A program made the translations under genes and the position numbers. A stretch of DNA of 30,020 bases from a virus: positions 1 through 30,020 of the IMG/VR virus record IMGVR_UViG_3300037042_002298; one strand, 5' to 3'. This document shows positions 12,927 through 29,344 of this stretch, piece after piece. Within the stretch, counting starts at the first letter, position 1. Each line of letters starts with the position of its first letter. Below the pieces are notes generated by a model. The model had not been told where the DNA came from, searched no databases, and was given only the letters and a program-made list of their open reading frames with translations.

Positions 12927-12959
12927 TAGCCACATAATCGCGAGCACCACACGATTTTG

Positions 12960-13859
12960 ATGAGCACCAAAACAGCACACGCGCCGGCTGATGCCGGCAA
13001 CGCACTAGCAGACCACGCTGCCGAGATTGCAGCGGTCTCGAGCCAGACCGAGGACACGCCCGCGCCTATGGTCTTCGACGATGCCGACCGCATCGTGATC
13101 GGCACGCCATGTTATGGCGGTAACGTCAAAATGGGCTTCATGACTTCGTACAACGAGACGCTGCTGCACGTCCGCATCCGCGTCCGTAATGAGCAAAACG
13201 AGATCGAGCTGCAACCGCTCGTGGCCGAGAGCCTATTCCTGGACAAGGAATCGCACATCGACCGAGCGCGGAACAAGATCGCCGCCAAGTTTCTCGCGAG
13301 CAAGTACAACTGGCTGCTCTATATCGACGCCGACATTGTCTTCCCGGGCACCGCGGTCGCGAGACTCTGGCAGCACGGCATGGTGGGGCACAAGATCGTT
13401 ACGGCACCTTACGCGCTAAAAGGCGTCGTGCCTCAGTTCGCGATCAATGGGCTAGCTGGCGCCAAGATCGACGAACGCGGGCTGGTCGAGGTCGTGCATG
13501 CCGGCACAGGCTTCATGCTGATCCATCGCAGCGTGTTTGACGCGATCCGCGATGCCGGCTTGGCGCCCGAGTACAACCTCGGCAGCAATGATCCCGACGT
13601 TCACACGCTCAAGACCTCCAGGGCTTACTTCAAGTCGGGCGTGCGCGAAGTGATGCCGGGCAATCCCATATGGCTCTCAGAGGATTACATGCTCTGCCAC
13701 GAGTGGCGCAATCTGGGCGGCAAGATCCACACCGACACCAAGGTGGCACTGAGCCACATAGGCGATCTTACCTATCCGGCGAATCCCAAGGAGATCTTCG
13801 CCGCCGTGGCCGAGCTCCGCCGCATCAAGCATCACGATTGCCCAGCCACGCTGGTTTAG
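12960..13859 (+). CDS. GT-A fold glycosyltransferase
   Basis: This 299-residue protein has a ~40-residue A/T-rich N-terminal tail, then IVIGTPCYGGNV (first beta strand and nucleotide loop), ESHIDRARNKIAAKFL (97-112), and the metal-binding DxD in WLLYIDADIVFPG (D123, D125). FMLIHRSVFD, the acceptor-side acidic SEDYMLCHEWRNLGGKIHTD (240-259) and LSHIGDLTY with a metal-ligand-type His266 complete the set expected of a retaining or inverting GT-A enzyme. It transfers a sugar from a nucleotide donor; the acceptor is unknown. The position directly behind the capsid and in front of the head-tail connector points to a late function, perhaps glycosylating a virion protein. Start ATG 12960 (TTG directly before). 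Confidence 0.84.
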   Translation: MSTKTAHAPADAGNALADHAAEIAAVSSQTEDTPAPMVFDDADRIVIGTPCYGGNVKMGFMTSYNETLLHVRIRVRNEQNEIELQPLVAESLFLDKESHIDRARNKIAAKFLASKYNWLLYIDADIVFPGTAVARLWQHGMVGHKIVTAPYALKGVVPQFAINGLAGAKIDERGLVEVVHAGTGFMLIHRSVFDAIRDAGLAPEYNLGSNDPDVHTLKTSRAYFKSGVREVMPGNPIWLSEDYMLCHEWRNLGGKIHTDTKVALSHIGDLTYPANPKEIFAAVAELRRIKHHDCPATLV

Positions 13860-20151: not shown

Positions 20152-23088
20152 ATGGCCCGCAACGACGTTTTCCTAAACATTAACGCACTCTCGCCTGCTG
20201 ATGCGGTCGTTACCGGCCAGCAGGACATGACCGCGGCCACCGTGCCCGAGCTGGTGCTGGGCGATACGCCGACGTTCAATTTCTATTTCACCGATAACAC
20301 CAACGTCTGGCCGAGCTGGGCGGGAAATGCGTCTTACACGCTGACCTGGGCGCTATCCGATGCCGTGGCCGGCGACTTTACGCCCGCGGCTACGACAGCC
20401 GACGCCACGCCGATTACCGGCGGCTGGAGTGTCGTCCTCCCGCTTAATGCTTACGACCTGGTGGGCCTGCTGAACACGAAGCGCGTCGGCCAACCCTACC
20501 CGGTGCAGAATCTCTGGCAGCAGCTGCGCGTGGCCGATCCCAGCGGGAACGAGATCACGCGGGCGATGTTCTGGACGCCGGTCCGCTACCGGGCGATCAG
20601 CGATACGCAGAACACCGAGAGTGCGAGTCCGACCGGCGGGCGCTTCGTCACGGTCAATAACGTAAACACGCTTACGACTCCAACCGCGGCGCAGTTCTAC
20701 GCGGCCAATCCGGTGCCGACGTCCGCGCTGGGCACCGCGGCAAACGGTGAACTGCTGATCGGCAATGGCACCGGCTTCGTCAAATCGACGCTGACCGCAG
20801 GCACGGGCATTACCGTCACCAACGCCGCAGGAGCGATCACGATCGACGCGAGCGGCGCGCAGGAATTGCTGACCGCGACCGTAAAGAACGCAGAAAGCGT
20901 CGCGATAACAAAGGGTCAGGTGGTGTATATTTTCGGCGCCACCGGAAACAGGCCGTCGGTTAAGCTGGCCTTCAACACGACCGACGCGACGAGCGCCAAG
21001 ACCTTTGGCGTAGTCTCCGACACATCAATTTCAGCCGGCGGCACCGGAACCGTCACCTGCGTCGGCGTGCTCGATGGTCTGAACCTCGGCGCGTACAACG
21101 ACGGCGACACCGTTTATCTAGGAGCGACGCCAGGCAGCATCACCAACGTAAAGCCCTACGCTCCCAATCATCTCGTTTACGTCGGCATCATCGAGCGGGC
21201 GAACGCTGGCAACGGCGAGCTCTACGTCCGCATTCAAAACGGATACGAGCTCGACGAGATCCACGACGTGCAGATCAACGCGCCGCGGCAAAGCGGCCAG
21301 ACGCTGATTTATGACAACACGTTAAGCCTTTGGAAAAACGCCCGCCTCACTGCCGGCAGTAACATCGCCGTTACCAACGGCGACGGCTCGATCAGCATCG
21401 GCTTCAGCGGGACGCTGCCAGTCGCCAACGGCGGCACTGGCGTCACGACCTCGACCGGATCTGGATCGGTTGTTCTCTCGACGAGCCCGACGCTGACGAC
21501 TCCGATCCTGGGCACGCCGCAGAGCGGCACGCTGACCAGCTGCACCGGGCTGCCGATCTCAACTGGCGTCTCAGGTCTCGGCACTAACGTTGCCACCTTC
21601 CTGGCGACCCCAAGCAGCGCCAATCTTGCGGCCGCAGTTACTGACGAAACCGGCACCGGCGCACTCGTCTTCGCAAATACGCCCACGCTGGTCACGCCCA
21701 ACATCGGCGCGGCGACCGGAACGAGCGTCAATTTATCGGGCGCAGGAACGTTTGGCGGCAACCTCACCGTCAGCGGCTCTACCACGGCAGCGAGCGGATC
21801 TGTTGGCGTAACGTCCTCGGACCCATCAATCCGCCTCAAAGCGACTGGCACGGTAGTTGCCGACGGAAATACTTTTGAAATCCGCAACCTGGGGATCGTC
21901 TCCAGTAACTTTCTCCAATTCCGCACGGTCAACGACGCAAACAGTTCGTTTACGACGCGAGCGGCTTTGTGGAACAGTGGCGGATTTTATCTCGGCACTG
22001 ACCCCGTAGGAGCAGGCAATCCCGGTGCGGGTAATATGCTGATTTCTGGCAACCTCACCGTCAACGGCGGCACCGCGACATTTCAAGATCCGACCAATAG
22101 TTATCGTGTGACGTTGACCACCGCGGCCGCCAAGTCGGTTCTGGCTACGTCGTTTGGCGGGTCGTCGCTGGCTCTGCGCACCAACGGGTCCGCGACCGAC
22201 GCGCTGCTGATCGACTCGTCGCTAAATACCACCCTCTCCGGCAACCTCACCGTCAGCGGGACGGGGACGAGCGCATTAACTTCCTCCTCCGCAAATTTAG
22301 TCGTCGGCTCAACGACCGCCACTTCAACAAATGCCGTCGGAGTTCCGCAAATTACCACGGAAAGCGATATTTATTCGTCGATCTGTTCGATGGCGCACAA
22401 CAACACCAACGGGAACCACGGATTCCTGATGGTTGGTAAATCACGCGGAACAAAAGCCAGCCCGACGATTCTGGCAGATGGTGATGTTTTCGGAGAGCTA
22501 GGATTTGTCGCTTACGACGGCGCTGCATACCGGACAGCAGGACAAATACGGAGCGTGATTGCAGGAACTCCCGGAGCGACAGATTTGCCGTGCGCCTTGG
22601 ATTTCCGAGTTGCTCCAGATGGGTCTTCAACTCCGGCAACTGCGATGAGGATTGCGCCCACCGGCAACGTCCTCATCGGCACGACCACCGACGGCGGGCA
22701 GAGGTTGCAGGTGAACGGGACGGCGACGTTTGCGGGGGACGTCACCATCTCTGCCAGTACCGGAACCTACTACGGCGGAACTAGCACGGGTGCCGGAGGA
22801 TTTTCCAACAACAATGCTAGTGCCTATTTGTTGGCGTATGGCAGCAGCAATGTCACATATCCGTCGCAACTGCAATTTAATGCTGGAGGAGCTGTTGCGT
22901 TGAGGATTGATGGTAGCCAGAACGCGACGTTTGCGGGCAACATCAAAACCGCCGCTCCTTCTGGCGGCACCGCTGGCGCGTGGAAGCTCGGCGTTCGCGT
23001 TGCGGCCACGACCACTCTGGACACGACCCAGTATCTCCAAGTCGATATTGGCGGCACGTTGTACAAGGTAGCCCTCGTAACCTCATAA
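20152..23088 (+). CDS. Tail fibre protein
   Basis: This 978-residue fibre probably contacts the host. The N-terminal ~160 residues (MARNDVFLNINALSPADAVV and onward) likely bind the tail. A hinge with GTGFVKSTLTAGTGITVTNA follows. The shaft has the well-known repeats GGTGVTTSTGSGSVVLSTSP, TLTTPILGTPQSG and PTLVTPNIGAATGTSV, shared by many phage fibres, plus three NLTVSG/NLTVNG units. Then come a domain with HNNTNGNHGFLMVGKSRGTK and the fibre end NVLIGTTTDGGQRLQVNGTA. The C-terminus TAAPSGGTAGAWKLG with QYLQVDIGGTLYKVALV has no chaperone-type autoprotease motif. Parts near 21840-22120 and 22330-22650 are AT-richer, as often seen where fibres exchange modules. Leader ACTCTCTCTCAA, no Shine-Dalgarno. 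Confidence 0.86.
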   Translation: MARNDVFLNINALSPADAVVTGQQDMTAATVPELVLGDTPTFNFYFTDNTNVWPSWAGNASYTLTWALSDAVAGDFTPAATTADATPITGGWSVVLPLNAYDLVGLLNTKRVGQPYPVQNLWQQLRVADPSGNEITRAMFWTPVRYRAISDTQNTESASPTGGRFVTVNNVNTLTTPTAAQFYAANPVPTSALGTAANGELLIGNGTGFVKSTLTAGTGITVTNAAGAITIDASGAQELLTATVKNAESVAITKGQVVYIFGATGNRPSVKLAFNTTDATSAKTFGVVSDTSISAGGTGTVTCVGVLDGLNLGAYNDGDTVYLGATPGSITNVKPYAPNHLVYVGIIERANAGNGELYVRIQNGYELDEIHDVQINAPRQSGQTLIYDNTLSLWKNARLTAGSNIAVTNGDGSISIGFSGTLPVANGGTGVTTSTGSGSVVLSTSPTLTTPILGTPQSGTLTSCTGLPISTGVSGLGTNVATFLATPSSANLAAAVTDETGTGALVFANTPTLVTPNIGAATGTSVNLSGAGTFGGNLTVSGSTTAASGSVGVTSSDPSIRLKATGTVVADGNTFEIRNLGIVSSNFLQFRTVNDANSSFTTRAALWNSGGFYLGTDPVGAGNPGAGNMLISGNLTVNGGTATFQDPTNSYRVTLTTAAAKSVLATSFGGSSLALRTNGSATDALLIDSSLNTTLSGNLTVSGTGTSALTSSSANLVVGSTTATSTNAVGVPQITTESDIYSSICSMAHNNTNGNHGFLMVGKSRGTKASPTILADGDVFGELGFVAYDGAAYRTAGQIRSVIAGTPGATDLPCALDFRVAPDGSSTPATAMRIAPTGNVLIGTTTDGGQRLQVNGTATFAGDVTISASTGTYYGGTSTGAGGFSNNNASAYLLAYGSSNVTYPSQLQFNAGGAVALRIDGSQNATFAGNIKTAAPSGGTAGAWKLGVRVAATTTLDTTQYLQVDIGGTLYKVALVTS
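21757..22259 (+). repeat. Three 20-base direct repeats in the fibre gene
   Basis: GGCAACCTCACCGTCAGCGG occurs at 21757-21776 and 22240-22259, and with one change (AACGG for AGCGG) at 22048-22067. Each encodes a GNLTVSG or GNLTVNG turn at a module border. Identical bases at module borders could let fibre segments be exchanged or deleted by recombination. Confidence 0.75.
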
Positions 23089-23702: not shown

Positions 23703-24101
23703 ATGCTCGACCTGCTGACCAACGCGCTCGGCGGTGGAGCACTCGGTGTGCTGCTCCGCATCGGCAACGGATTCTTTGAGACCTGGCGCGCAGACAAGGA
23801 ATCGAAGCTCAAGATCGAAGAGGCGAAGGCAATGGCAGCCATCGCGGCGGACAAGGCGTCCTGGGATGCTTTCACGGCGTCCCAGGCCCAAGCCACCCCG
23901 CCCTCTAACACCCCGGGCTGGGCAGCCGCCATCCTGACGCTTTTCCGGCCATTCATCACCCTGCTGCTGCTGATCATCGTGGCGGTGATTTTCTTTCACG
24001 TCACGGGCCAGGAACAGGCGGATATGGTGGATGAGTTCCAGTTCGCAGCCATGAACTGCATCGGCTGGTGGTTCGGTGATCGCATGGTGCGCAAAAAATG
24101 A
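23703..24101 (+). CDS. Holin of the GTA 3-TM type
   Basis: This is a 132-residue protein with a glycine-rich hydrophobic start (LLTNALGGGALGVLLRIGNG), an amphipathic central helix (KESKLKIEEAKAMAAIAADK), a TPPSNTPGW linker, and a long membrane segment (AAILTLFRPFITLLLLIIVAVIFFHV, about residues 74-99). The C-terminal end CIGWWFGDRMVRKK, in particular the WFGDR motif, is characteristic of the 3-TM holin family first noted in gene-transfer agents. It would form the membrane lesion that lets the lysozyme act or depolarises the membrane. It is followed with a 4-base overlap by another membrane protein. Confidence 0.8.
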   Translation: MLDLLTNALGGGALGVLLRIGNGFFETWRADKESKLKIEEAKAMAAIAADKASWDAFTASQAQATPPSNTPGWAAAILTLFRPFITLLLLIIVAVIFFHVTGQEQADMVDEFQFAAMNCIGWWFGDRMVRKK

Positions 24102-24454
24102 GCGCTGAGAATCAGACGGAGACAGCTAAAGAGGTCGCCGGCAAAAGCATCGGGCGATTCGGCCTCGCATACATCACAGCGATCGTGCTGATCAGCGTCG
24201 GCGCATCGGCGTTTCTGCGCGATTCGGCAATCACCGCGGTGATGACCATGACTGGCGGGGCGCTTGTCGCTCTGATCAACATGATGCAGGGCATCACTGG
24301 CACCAAGGATCGCGAGGAAAAGCCCGAGTTCAAAATTATCGGCGAACTGATCGAGCGGCTGGAATCGAGTAACGAGCCGATGAGCGTCACCGTCGATGGA
24401 AACAAGGTCACGGTTCAAAAGGGCGGATCTACGTTTAAGGCCCATAAACAATGA
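24098..24454 (+). CDS. Two-helix membrane protein, possible second holin or antiholin
   Basis: The product has 118 residues. Two hydrophobic segments (AYITAIVLISVGASAFL at about 24-40, and ITAVMTMTGGALVALINMMQ at about 45-64) are followed by a polar tail with MSVTVDGNKVTVQKGGSTFK. Two membrane segments behind a holin suggest a partner that times or modulates lysis. No family is certain. ATG 24098 overlaps the holin stop, and its own stop overlaps the next ATG. Confidence 0.62.
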   Translation: MSAENQTETAKEVAGKSIGRFGLAYITAIVLISVGASAFLRDSAITAVMTMTGGALVALINMMQGITGTKDREEKPEFKIIGELIERLESSNEPMSVTVDGNKVTVQKGGSTFKAHKQ

Positions 24455-24615
24455 ACAGCCTGCGCCCAACCGACGTAATCGCGGCATCGATGCCCACTGT
24501 ATCCGCGACGCTGGTCGCTCAGGCCAACCAATGGGCCGGGCTGATCGGCTCCCTGCTCGGCATCGTGTATCTCTTGTGGCGCTGGCGTCGCGAAGCGCGT
24601 GAAGGCAAGATCTAA
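24451..24615 (+). CDS. Small single-pass membrane protein (54 aa)
   Basis: A 54-residue frame runs from ATG 24451 (ATGA overlap) to TAA 24613-24615. A polar start, then AGLIGSLLGIVYLLW (about 29-43) as a transmembrane helix, then a basic end RWRREAREGKI that should remain in the cytoplasm. It is the fourth small membrane protein in a row. It could be a spanin-type or lysis-timing component, but no lipobox and no periplasmic coiled coil are seen, so no spanin claim is made. Confidence 0.55.
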   Translation: MNSLRPTDVIAASMPTVSATLVAQANQWAGLIGSLLGIVYLLWRWRREAREGKI

Positions 24616-25342
24616 GCGTTTCGTGGTGGTCGCCGACAGCCACGGCGACATGCTCGACGACAAGGTCGCGAAGGCACTGTTCGCCTTCCTGGATGATTGG
24701 AGACCAGAGATCCGCGTGCATGCCGGCGATGCTTGGGACTTCCGCAATTTGCGTCGCGGTGCGAGCGATGACGAGAAGGCCGCAAGCCTGGTCGATGACT
24801 GGGACGCAGGCACCCAGTTCCTGACCAAGTACTTTGCGGGCGGGCGCGAGAACTGGTTTCTCCGCGGCAATCACGACGAGCGGCTCTGGCACTTTGCGGG
24901 ATCTGCCACCGGGCTGCTGCGCGACTATGCGCAGGACGGCATCAAGAGAGTTCAGCAGCTCATGAAGAAAACGAAGGCTGTGATGCTGCCATATGATGCA
25001 GCGCATGGCGTCTTACGCCTGGGCGAGCTGCGCGTCGTACACGGCTACCACGCCGGCATCGGAGCCGCCAGGGCGCATGCCAACGTTTACCGCAACGTGA
25101 TCTTCGGGCACACGCACACTATCGAGACAAGCGCCATCGCAGCACTCGAGCCGGCAGAGGCTCGCAGCATCGGCTGCCTTTGCGTGCGCGACATGGACTA
25201 TGTCAACGCCAAGACCGGCAAGCTGCGCTGGGGCCAAGGCTGGGCAAGCGGGATTCTGCACGATAATGGCACGTACACGCTCAACCAAATCCGCTGCATC
25301 GATGGCGCCTTCGTCGCGCCCGTCGAATTCAAGACCTACTGA
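24599..25342 (+). CDS. Calcineurin-like metallophosphoesterase
   Basis: This 247-residue protein has the complete metal-binding set: D13-x-H15 in VVADSHGD, GD in HAGDAWD (43-44), GNHDE (90-94), a His in VVHGYH (148) and GHTH (170-173). It should be a two-metal phosphoesterase; the substrate (nucleotide, DNA end, protein phosphate, lipid headgroup) cannot be told from sequence. GTG 24599 overlaps the previous gene by 17 bases, so it belongs to the lysis-region transcript. The acidic start and the ASDDEKAASLVDDW insert are unremarkable. No signal peptide, so it acts in the cytoplasm. Confidence 0.88.
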   Translation: MKARSKRFVVVADSHGDMLDDKVAKALFAFLDDWRPEIRVHAGDAWDFRNLRRGASDDEKAASLVDDWDAGTQFLTKYFAGGRENWFLRGNHDERLWHFAGSATGLLRDYAQDGIKRVQQLMKKTKAVMLPYDAAHGVLRLGELRVVHGYHAGIGAARAHANVYRNVIFGHTHTIETSAIAALEPAEARSIGCLCVRDMDYVNAKTGKLRWGQGWASGILHDNGTYTLNQIRCIDGAFVAPVEFKTY

Positions 25343-25912: not shown

Positions 25913-26298
25913 GTTCACGCTGCGCCGCGCTCGAGCGATCGCGTTAAAACGCAAAGCTCGGCAAATGCGAGGCAACGCAGCAGCAGCCGGCCAGAGTCAC
26001 GACGCAATCGCGACGAGAACGAAGCGAGCGGAGCACCCCGGTGCATGCGTAAAGGAATCTATTGCAGCAATTTACCGTGCGCCGGTTTGGCGACCCGCGT
26101 GAAACGCACATTTTGGGTAAAAACACTCAACTTCCAAAACCAGAACCAGCCCAGGGTCGCCGTTTAACTTTGTTACGCGGCAAGCACCTGCGGCTGCGCC
26201 ACTTGCGCAAGCATCGTCCGATTCTTCTTCACAAGTGCTAGGGTCATCGGCTAAGTTGTGTGCGTCGGAGGCAATCAAGCCCGAGACCAAAACACACG

Positions 26299-26442
26299 AT
26301 GAACGACAAATTCAGCATCACCCCCGAGTGGATCGGGCAAGACGGAAACCGTTACCGTAGCTTTCGCCGCTGGCAGGGAGACGGTTGGACTCAAAGTTTT
26401 CTGCAGTGCTTCCAGCAGAATCGCTGGGTGACGCTTTACTGA
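26299..26442 (+). CDS. Small hypothetical protein (47 aa)
   Basis: A 47-residue frame runs from ATG 26299: NDKFSITPEWIGQDGNRYRS, then FRRWQGDGWTQSFLQCFQQN. It is rich in W, Q and R, so it may bind nucleic acid or a host protein. It is the first gene after the long control region and stops 3 bases before the lysozyme start. The position at the head of the early genes fits a host-takeover protein, an unproven idea. Leader ACACACG, no Shine-Dalgarno. Confidence 0.55.
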   Translation: MNDKFSITPEWIGQDGNRYRSFRRWQGDGWTQSFLQCFQQNRWVTLY

Positions 26443-26445
26443 GCC

Positions 26446-26841
26446 ATGAAACGTTTACTGTTTCTCCTCACCCTGGCCGCTGCCGCTCACGCGGCTCCGC
26501 CGGCGTCATTCTGGACCGCGCTGCACCAGGTCGAGACATCCGGCCGGCTTGGCGCGATCCTCGGCGACAACGGCCGCTCACTCGGTCCGCTCCAGATCAG
26601 CCGCGCCTACTTCGCCGATTCCAAAGTGGCCGGCAGTTACGAACAAGTGATCGAGCTAGATTCCGCGATCAAGGTCGCCTCAGCCTACATGCGCCGCTAC
26701 GAGCCCGAGGCGTGGCGCCAAGGCAACGTCGAGATCCTCGCCCGGCTGCACAACGCCGGGCCTAGCTGGCGCCGCAAGCTGGCGGCGACCGATGCCTACG
26801 CTGCAAAGGTGCAACGCGAAATGCGCAAACTCCTACCATGA
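26446..26841 (+). CDS. Secreted i-type lysozyme/destabilase-like endolysin
   Basis: This 131-residue protein has a Sec signal peptide (KRLLFLLTLAAAAHA, probable cut after A16). The mature part matches the invertebrate-type lysozyme pattern: HQVETSGR with Glu30, GDNGRSLGPLQISRAYFADS with Asp41 (the QI-x(3)-Y pattern), then YMRRY (81-85) and ARLHNAGP (99-106), corresponding to the family's YMxRY and ARxHNGGP. Glu30 and Asp41 take the positions of the two catalytic residues known from clam lysozyme. The cysteines that stabilise animal members are all absent. It would cleave peptidoglycan glycan strands in the periplasm after Sec export. It lies after the 667-bp gap, apart from the holins. Confidence 0.78.
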   Translation: MKRLLFLLTLAAAAHAAPPASFWTALHQVETSGRLGAILGDNGRSLGPLQISRAYFADSKVAGSYEQVIELDSAIKVASAYMRRYEPEAWRQGNVEILARLHNAGPSWRRKLAATDAYAAKVQREMRKLLP

Positions 26842-27257
26842 CCAACGAACAATACACCGAGCTGATGCTCGAGATCCGCGCTATCCGATCCGCGCTCAGT
26901 GATCGCATCAAGCCAGCTGCAACCGCAGCGGCTTCCAAGCCCTTGGGGGCCAAGTCTGCCGATATCCAGCAGCCAACGGAGATCGTGGACAACCCGGGCG
27001 CCGTGCAGGTGCACTTTGGCAAGAACAAGGGCCGAGCGCTGGCAGATCTCGGAGCGAAGAGCGTCGAGTGGTACGCTCAAGAGCCCGAGCCCCGACTGCG
27101 CACCGATGGCTCGCCATTCCCGCCGCGGGCGGAGGATCTGCTGCTGCGCAACGCAGCCAGGACAATCGTCCATCAAAACCGCGGCACCCTTGCCGGCGGC
27201 AGCGCCAAGCTGGTGCTGAAAGATGACATCAACGTGAGCGAGCAAGTTCCTTTCTGA
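26838..27257 (+). CDS. ExoX C-terminal-like domain protein
   Basis: This is a 139-residue protein, ATG 26838 overlapping the lysozyme stop. After a helical start comes VHFGKNKGRALADLGAKSVE (about 58-77), the FGKxKG-x(n)-W pattern of the small domain found at the C-terminus of exonuclease X-like proteins and in stand-alone phage proteins; there is no nuclease domain. The extreme C-terminus, LKDDINVSEQVPF, ends in acidic residues and VPF and recalls the DDDIPF tip of single-strand binding proteins. A role with single-stranded DNA in the recombination block is therefore possible. The next gene is RecT-like. Confidence 0.6.
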   Translation: MTNEQYTELMLEIRAIRSALSDRIKPAATAAASKPLGAKSADIQQPTEIVDNPGAVQVHFGKNKGRALADLGAKSVEWYAQEPEPRLRTDGSPFPPRAEDLLLRNAARTIVHQNRGTLAGGSAKLVLKDDINVSEQVPF

Positions 27258-27259
27258 GC

Positions 27260-27919
27260 ATGAACACAACACACGATACAACCGACACGGCGCTGGTTAA
27301 AGCCACTGCCAATAAATCGCCCATCACCTTTGGTGATTCGGGCGTGAAACTAGCGAGCCTCGAAGATGCGTACCGATTCGCTAACGCGATCTGCGCAAGC
27401 GGATTCGCGCCGCGAGGCATGGAGAAGCCCGAGGCCGTCCTGGTGGCGATCCAGCTGGGCGCTGAAATCGGGCTTTCTCCCATGGCGGCGCTGCAGAATA
27501 CCGCGGTGATCAATGGGCGCCCGGCGATCTACGGTGACGCTGCTCTGGCACTTGTCCGCGGATCTGGGCTGCTCGTCTCTTATAAGGAAGAGGAGATCGG
27601 CGAGGCCGGCAGCGACGGCCACGGCTACCGGGTGACAGCGGTGCGCCAGGGCGAGCAGACTGCCGTCGAGACGTTCACCGTTGGCGACGCCAAGCGGGCG
27701 AAGCTCTGGGGCAAGTCTGGCCCGTGGACAGATTATCCTAAACGCATGCTGCGGTTTCGTGCCCGGGGCTACGTCCTGCGCGATCTATTCGGCGACGTGC
27801 TGAAAGGGCTGCGCACCGTCGAGGAGGTGCGCGACATTCCAGCGGAGCCGATTAACGTAACGCCGCTGGCCGATAAGGTCGCTGGCGGGCTTTCGAGCCA
27901 GATTGGAGGTGCCGCATGA
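27260..27919 (+). CDS. RecT-like single-strand annealing protein
   Basis: RecT/Redbeta-type proteins coat single strands and anneal them. The 219-residue protein has the segments VLVAIQLGAEIGLSPMAALQ (about 56-75) and NTAVINGRPAIYGDAALALV (about 76-95), typical of RecT-family members in many phages. An aromatic SGPWTDYPKRMLRFRARGYV (about 150-169) follows, where RecT proteins carry WxxxPxxMxxKTAxR-type residues. A RecE-like exonuclease gene two positions downstream completes the usual pair. ATG 27260, no Shine-Dalgarno. Confidence 0.82.
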   Translation: MNTTHDTTDTALVKATANKSPITFGDSGVKLASLEDAYRFANAICASGFAPRGMEKPEAVLVAIQLGAEIGLSPMAALQNTAVINGRPAIYGDAALALVRGSGLLVSYKEEEIGEAGSDGHGYRVTAVRQGEQTAVETFTVGDAKRAKLWGKSGPWTDYPKRMLRFRARGYVLRDLFGDVLKGLRTVEEVRDIPAEPINVTPLADKVAGGLSSQIGGAA

Positions 27920-28212: not shown

Positions 28213-28511
28213 ACTTGGAAACGATCCAAGCATGGATCGCCGGCAAAGAGGCCGCGATCATGCAGAGCCACGCGCAGCACTTCTCGCAGATTCAGATAAT
28301 CATTGATAAGAGCAAGGTGAGAATCTGGGGCTATGGGGTCCGCGGCGACGAACGGAACTGGTATCGAAACGGAGAAGGCGGCACGGTCGAGGAGGCCGCA
28401 GCCGCTCTGGCTGCGAATTTTCCAAGCGGATCGGAGCGGATAAATCGTCTGCGCGACCAGGCGAAAGAGCTGCTGCGGCTGGCGGCAGAAATCGAAAAGG
28501 AGCAGCCATGA
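28209..28511 (+). CDS. Hypothetical protein
   Basis: The product has 100 residues. A helix (NLETIQAWIAGKEAAIMQSH), a beta part (QIQIIIDKSKVRIWGYGVRG), and a C-terminal helix with GGTVEEAAAALAANF and ERINRLRDQAKELLRLAAEI follow. The TVEEAAAAL part recalls small phage proteins that use this helix to dimerise. The function is unknown. It is coupled on both sides by 4-base overlaps inside the recombination block. Confidence 0.65.
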   Translation: MNLETIQAWIAGKEAAIMQSHAQHFSQIQIIIDKSKVRIWGYGVRGDERNWYRNGEGGTVEEAAAALAANFPSGSERINRLRDQAKELLRLAAEIEKEQP

Positions 28512-29344
28512 TCCAAGAATCATCATCCGAGTATCATGCCAACGCCGCGGTCTCGCACTCGAAACTCGAGACGTTTAGACGCCGGCCGGCGCTGTATCAT
28601 AAGCGATACATCGCGAAACAGATTGTTTCAGAGGAGCCGAGCGCGGCTTTTCGCATCGGATCCGCGGTGCATTGCTCGGTGCTCGAGCCGGCCGAGTGGG
28701 CGCATCGTTATGCGATCAAGCCAGAGGGCATCGACCGCCGCACGAAAGAGGGCAAGGAACGGTGGGCGCAGTTTGAGCAGCAGAACGGCGGCAAGACGAT
28801 TATTGATCAGGACGAGTCAGCACTGGTGCTGCAGATGACCGATGCCGTGCGTCACAATCCTCTGGCCGCGCAGCTGCTGGGCCGGGGCGTGCCCGAAGCG
28901 ACTTGGCGCACCGGCGGCACCATGCCACTGCAGTGCCGCACCGACTGGTTTAACCCCGACGGCTGCGAGCTGACCGATGGGCGCGCATACGTGGCCGATC
29001 TGAAGACCGTTGAGAGCCTGGACGACGAGACGTTTAGCAACTTCGAGCGTGCCGTTTTCCGGTTCGGCTACCACCGGCAGGCTGGGTTTTATCTGCCGCT
29101 AATCTCAGAGCTCTGGGCAAAGCCGGTCTTTGATTTCTTCTTTCTGGCCGTGGAGAAGTGCGAGCCGTTTGGAGTCGCCGTGTTCCGGCTCACCGATGAT
29201 GCGGTTTCGCTCGGCCAGGACGAGACGATTGCGGATCTGCGCGATCTGAAGCGCTGCATTGATTTCGACGTTTGGCCCAACATCGATGCCGTAGTGCGCG
29301 AGCTCGGCGTTCCGGCGTGGTACACGAAAGGACTGACGCCATGA
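28508..29344 (+). CDS. RecE-like PD-(D/E)XK exonuclease
   Basis: This 278-residue protein is of the RecE/exonuclease VIII C-terminal type that digests one strand from double-strand ends to feed RecT. Signatures visible: YHANAAVSHSKLETFRRRPA near the start, FRIGSAVHCSVLEP with His55, Asp146 in LQCRTDWF, the catalytic pair D164-x-K166 in YVADLKTVES, and Q191-x(3)-Y195 in GYHRQAGFY. Together they form the PD-(D/E)XK/RecB-like core. AAGGAG sits 6 bases before the ATG, and the ATG overlaps the stop upstream. Confidence 0.86.
   Translation: MIQESSSEYHANAAVSHSKLETFRRRPALYHKRYIAKQIVSEEPSAAFRIGSAVHCSVLEPAEWAHRYAIKPEGIDRRTKEGKERWAQFEQQNGGKTIIDQDESALVLQMTDAVRHNPLAAQLLGRGVPEATWRTGGTMPLQCRTDWFNPDGCELTDGRAYVADLKTVESLDDETFSNFERAVFRFGYHRQAGFYLPLISELWAKPVFDFFFLAVEKCEPFGVAVFRLTDDAVSLGQDETIADLRDLKRCIDFDVWPNIDAVVRELGVPAWYTKGLTP

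Follow-up and report, generated by a model that had tools for sequence, protein, structure and literature searches.

The window analysed here, i.e., the whole stretch of 30,020 nucleotides at positions 1 to 30,020 of an IMG/VR virus record (IMGVR_UViG_3300037042_002298), encodes a protein that is a genuine relative of the i-type (invertebrate, destabilase) lysozymes. We consider it likely that this protein belongs to a phage i-type (destabilase) branch and is a tailed-phage endolysin, exported by the Sec pathway and timed by a holin-like protein.

The lysozyme gene and its product

The gene of the i-type (destabilase-like) lysozyme and putative endolysin lies on the plus strand at positions 26446 to 26841 (ATG start, stop included) and encodes 131 residues, none of them cysteine. 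A sequence-only reading of this DNA had described an exported protein of 131 residues, and the open reading frame was confirmed at this position and strand. Judged by eye, its N-terminus, MKRLLFLLTLAAAAHA|A, looks like a typical Sec signal peptide that is cleavable and has an AxA site (26446 to 26493, plus strand; predicted cleavage after Ala16). Ala16 is present in 80 of 83 distinct relatives, and a signal peptide-like N-terminus was found throughout the phage family. The motifs pointed out in the same reading, i.e., GDNGRSLGPLQI, YMRRY and ARLHNAGP, were all recovered in the protein.

The gene is under strong purifying selection, with Nei-Gojobori dN/dS values of 0.13-0.15 against the nearest homologues (L001-L003) and of 0.19-0.35 against more distant ones. 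The values for the nearest homologues support that the frame is a real gene. Its 3' end overlaps the next gene (26838) by 4 bases.

Relationship to the i-type lysozymes

A phmmer search of all PDB chains with the single window sequence placed the leech destabilase first (E = 8.4e-6), followed by clam lysozymes (0.05-0.1) and nothing else sensible. In Pfam, the window protein matched Destabilase (PF05497) alone, at 17 bits and thus under the curated cut-off of 26.2, a threshold that is cleared by the relative at locus L083 (34.9 bits). With a profile of 13 family sequences, the PDB matches were 8bbu (6e-17), 3ab6 (1e-14), 4pj2 (1.1e-14) and 2dqa (2e-12); the next unrelated match was at 0.01 and goose-type lysozymes were at 0.5. 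Individually, 10 of the 13 profile members matched PF05497. The phmmer and profile E-values (8.4e-6 and 6e-17), considered together with a dN/dS of 0.13-0.15, show that the resemblance to i-type lysozymes is not due to chance. Successive scans of IMG/VR for relatives returned 5, then 123, and then at least 464 stretches. No PHROG family matched the window lysozyme, which makes phage-specific annotation uninformative for it.

An AlphaFold2 model built from 23 sequences (pLDDT 90.5, pTM 0.82) gave the same picture. The i-type fold proposed in the sequence-only reading was borne out, since i-type lysozymes occupied ranks 1 to 6 in a Foldseek comparison with the PDB (E 1.1e-4 to 6.6e-4, TM 0.65-0.75). 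A confident match to an SLT or goose-type enzyme with other catalytic residues would have spoken against this fold; goose-type lysozymes (0.028) and SLT70 (0.064) both came behind the i-type structures, and no significant match to either group was obtained by profile, Pfam or Foldseek.

The leech destabilase (8bbu/8bbw), the clam i-type lysozymes (3ab6, 2dqa, 4pj2) and PF05497 share with the phage family both the fold and the Glu/Asp pair. Glu30 (codon gag, 26533 to 26535, plus strand), the predicted general acid, falls on clam Glu18 of 3ab6 in the profile alignment and by homology on destabilase Glu34, and Asp41 (codon gac, 26566 to 26568, plus strand), the predicted second catalytic acid, falls on residue 29 (D29) of 3ab6, with no gap between the two positions. 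In the same alignment Asp41 stands opposite residue 26 of 8bbu (Asp46 in full-length numbering), and a MAFFT alignment paired both acids identically. Glu34 and Asp46 are the reported muramidase dyad of destabilase (PMC10126035). Across 83/83 distinct full-length phage sequences neither Glu30 nor Asp41 varies, and the same is true of Gly40, Gly43, Gly47, Gln50, Asp58, Tyr81, Arg84, Arg100, Asn103, Thr115 and Tyr118. The alignment with the i-type dyad and this invariance point to Glu30 and Asp41 as the catalytic pair, as had been predicted.

The C-terminal motif YMKRY...ARIHNGGPxG...AT.xY..KV is also common to the animal i-type lysozymes and the phage family, although in the subclade of the window HNAGPSWRRKL replaces HNGGPxGxxK. 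Identity to the leech destabilase is 36% over 86 residues for the window protein. The Asp loop of the phage protein is shorter by one residue than that of the animal enzymes.

A further difference concerns the cysteines. Many conserved disulfides are typical of the animal i-type members and are not catalytic, and we treat them as a trait of the animal branch and not as family-defining. The claim of a cysteine-free protein is correct for the window protein. It also holds for 57 of the 83 relatives, whose mature part carries no cysteine, but not for the rest, with one cysteine in 23 and two in 3. In members such as L083, L065 and L090 the lone cysteine sits at an animal half-cystine position (YEDCADL versus YESCTKN). 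With zero to two cysteines per relative, the disulfide network is absent throughout the phage branch. The P1 endolysin Lyz uses a disulfide switch, and a switch of this type is impossible in the window enzyme, which has no cysteine. The animal destabilase, in contrast to the phage protein, has 14 cysteines (PMC10126035).

The i-type family is already on record in phages, in the form of traces in a Cellulophaga phage, UniProt and PhaLP 2.0. Cellulophaga phage Calle_1 gp060 / phi38:1 gp032, annotated as 'lysozyme (Destabilise-like protein)', is an exported protein of 143 aa that is ~31% identical and keeps the E, GDNG, GxLQI and HNGG motifs; it is much more distant, has two insertions, and is seen by Pfam as SLT instead of Destabilase. 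The UniProt entry A0A6J5P067 ('Destabilase [uncultured Caudovirales phage]'), a structure match with an E-value of 1.8e-7 and 39% identity, is annotated by name only. PhaLP 2.0 lists 'destabilase' domains among machine-predicted lysins, and its authors class them as 'miscellaneous', suspect an annotation error and do not name Destabilase there as an i-type lysozyme catalytic domain (PMC13237592). Beyond such passing mentions, we found no paper in the literature describing a phage i-type lysozyme family.

Two other enzymatic activities were weighed against an i-type muramidase. The protein could be a lytic transglycosylase-like enzyme of the SLT/goose type, working with Glu30 alone and releasing anhydro products, in which case the i-type likeness would reflect a shared core. 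The folds are related, with goose-type lysozymes and SLT70 next in the Foldseek ranking, and the best Pfam match of the distant Cellulophaga phage relative is SLT (18.7 bits, under the cut-off). Weak NCBIfam matches to RpfC (0.0018-0.013) point the same way; an RpfC identity was itself rejected, these matches being put down to the shared superfamily core. Yet SLT was matched by none of the other 12 profile members, against 10 of 13 for Destabilase, the profile search of the PDB returned no SLT structure at E<=10 and goose-type lysozymes at 0.5, and the model of the Cellulophaga protein also ranked i-type lysozymes first (pLDDT 76.7, E >= 0.02). Moreover, Asp41, dispensable for SLT enzymes, is invariant in 83/83 sequences, and we regard a transglycosylase as quite unlikely. 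An isopeptidase or peptidase, comparable to the second activity of the leech destabilase, appears very improbable. For the isopeptidase activity of that enzyme, Ser51 and His112 have been proposed (PMC10126035), and in the alignment Ser45 lies near the first and His102 opposite the second. However, 32 of the 83 relatives have Ala at position 45, which makes the role unlikely since the proposed serine of the animal protein is then not conserved in the phage family, and 3 have Phe or Trp in place of His102.

Genomic context

Along the window, a primase/helicase and the TerS, TerL, portal, tail and tail fibre genes precede three small genes with hydrophobic or transmembrane (TM) stretches; then come a metallophosphoesterase, the lysozyme, and a module of RecT and exonuclease VIII. 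All features given with coordinates in this paragraph are on the plus strand. The tail fibre-like protein (20152 to 23088; PHROG 18345, E 9.6e-16) closes the series of large structural genes ahead of the lysis region. It is followed by a 132-aa candidate holin (23703 to 24101) which has a single, strongly predicted TM segment and a C-terminal WWFGDR, belongs to PHROG 6637 (no function assigned) and is conserved in L153 and L154; by a 118-aa candidate holin or antiholin (24098 to 24454) that has two predicted TM segments and overlaps its neighbours; and by a 54-aa possible lysis accessory protein (24451 to 24615) with a basic tail and one moderately hydrophobic stretch, of which the KD maximum of 1.29 is under the TM threshold of 1.6. 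The metallophosphoesterase (24599 to 25342; PHROG 221, E 4e-15) lies between these holin-like genes and the lysozyme. Directly upstream of the lysozyme, a 47-aa ORF (26299 to 26442) ends 3 nt before the ATG, and translational coupling between the two is possible; a small ORF occupies the same place in related phages. Downstream, a 139-aa conserved protein (26838 to 27257) that overlaps the lysozyme stop codon starts the recombination module, which includes a RecT-like annealing protein (27260 to 27919; PHROG 561, E 2.5e-41) and an exonuclease VIII-like nuclease (28508 to 29344; PHROG 412, E 2.4e-61).

Close relatives repeat the order of tail fibre, TM genes, metallophosphoesterase, lysozyme, RecT and exonuclease, and other lineages keep that of tail gene, lysozyme, RecT and exonuclease. 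In most relatives the lysozyme is flanked by the last structural genes on one side and by the 139-aa gene, RecT and exonuclease on the other, its surroundings being different in L079, L083 and L155. In lineages L149 and L150, no TM gene was found adjoining the lysozyme. A Pfam search of the window TM proteins returned no holin family, scans of the window with Rfam and for tRNAs found none, and a sigma-70 promoter scan upstream was likewise negative.

Several further features of these phage genomes were observed. Position 1 of three related contigs from three different datasets (L001, L002 and L003) falls on one and the same base, window position 26084 (GGTTTGGCGACCCGCG...), whereas the window and two other contigs run on across it. 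The pattern suggests a physical, cos-like genome end, lying ~360 nt upstream of the lysozyme. The sequence GTCGGAGGCAATCAAGCCCGAGACCA occurs once in the window (26264-26289). In L001-L004, L008 and L030 it is conserved directly upstream of the ORF that precedes the lysozyme; L116, L135 and L139 also have matches, and it is a possible regulatory leader. In L005 and L030 the N-terminal half of the lysozyme is near-identical to the window protein and the C-terminal half is mainstream-like (HNGGPAGARK), which looks like intragenic recombination. By eye, genes are inserted directly after the lysozyme in L150 (10110-12463), L152 (9853-12326) and L153 (9679-11874), in coordinates of the reverse complement of each locus: a helicase-like gene and, in L150 and L152, also one like a DNA methyltransferase. 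Elsewhere in the window, the early region encodes a protein of 57 aa with one TM segment (702-875) that is conserved in these phages, and the structural region a 300-aa protein (12957-13859) with weak glycosyltransferase matches (E 0.003) that belongs to PHROG 1574 (no function assigned).

Proposed role in lysis

A lysin census was made on 13 phage records of 29.6-47.6 kb, which may themselves be incomplete. Since the records were picked for carrying the gene, the census tests its single-copy occurrence and the absence of other lysins. The lysozyme family occurred exactly once in each of the 13 records, and SLT (PF01464), Amidase_2 (PF01510), Phage_lysozyme (PF00959) and Peptidase_M15_3 (PF08291) were found in 0/13, with positive controls matched; GH25, GH108, CHAP and Amidase_3 lie outside these four domains and could be present. 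One copy per record and the absence of four common lysin domains support the lysozyme as endolysin. A tail-gene-linked protein in L149, L150 and L156, which we take from its motif to be NlpC/P60-like, looks like a tail protein. From the original proposal of a phage endolysin, the i-type lysozyme stands, while the lysin role is one that we infer from gene position, the export signal and the absence of other lysin domains.

In the mechanism that we propose, the lysozyme would be made late in infection and carried by Sec across the inner membrane, where the signal peptide would be removed after Ala16. The mature enzyme of ~115 residues would then act on peptidoglycan and cleave its MurNAc-GlcNAc bond; Glu30 would serve as the general acid and Asp41 as the second acid. 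The timing of lysis would probably be set by a holin-like membrane protein, the candidates being those starting at 23703, 24098 and 24451. The host is plausibly Verrucomicrobia-like and Gram-negative, since among named phages the closest TerL is that of the Verrucomicrobia phage P8625 (22% identity), which shares with the window the order of tail fibre, metallophosphoesterase and RecT. No i-type lysozyme was detectable in the P8625 record.

It is also conceivable, if rather unlikely, that the protein is an i-type muramidase exported early for another purpose (such as local opening of the wall, superinfection control or the killing of competing bacteria) and that lysis is left to an unrecognised enzyme. 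The gene lies at the start of the recombination module, whose first gene (26838) it overlaps, and it might therefore be transcribed with early genes; the TM genes of the window lie ~2 kb upstream, with the putative genome end at 26084 in between. In addition, Callevirus phages, which carry the distant homologue, reportedly use an amidase, named as the candidate endolysin in the description of phage Calle (PMC8776804). What speaks against a role outside lysis is the presence of one copy in each of the 13 records with no other recognised lysin, the strong purifying selection, and the late genes that adjoin the lysozyme in most of the lineages examined. On balance, we favour the endolysin of a tailed phage.

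Origin and significance

The i-type lysozymes are known as immune and digestive enzymes of animals. A scan of bacterial genomes for the family gave a single locus (L083, PBPC01000080.1). Its contig, 5.3 kb long, belongs to a Gemmatimonadetes MAG (G001) and is possibly misbinned phage DNA. A search of plasmids found no family member. As PF05497 was present in 1 of 395 genomes of that phylum, and on this short contig, a source on bacterial chromosomes is not apparent in this phylum. Among the members compared, L083 is the closest to the leech destabilase, and its identity of up to 44% over 86 residues suggests a real common descent of the phage-like and leech proteins. We tentatively raise the possibility, which we hold to be doubtful in this full form, that these proteins are a large and essentially undescribed viral i-type branch of disulfide-free, Sec-exported endolysins from phages of Verrucomicrobia-like hosts, standing to the animal enzymes either as a reservoir, by transfer, or as a sister group.

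The breadth of the phage branch, with at least 464 IMG/VR stretches, makes the origin of i-type lysozymes testable, and the branch adds a lysozyme type that phage lysin collections (PMC13237592) do not so far treat as a catalytic domain. Having no disulfides, a member such as this one could fold in the cytoplasm of bacteria; i-type enzymology and antibacterial use would then be simpler than with the 14-cysteine animal proteins.
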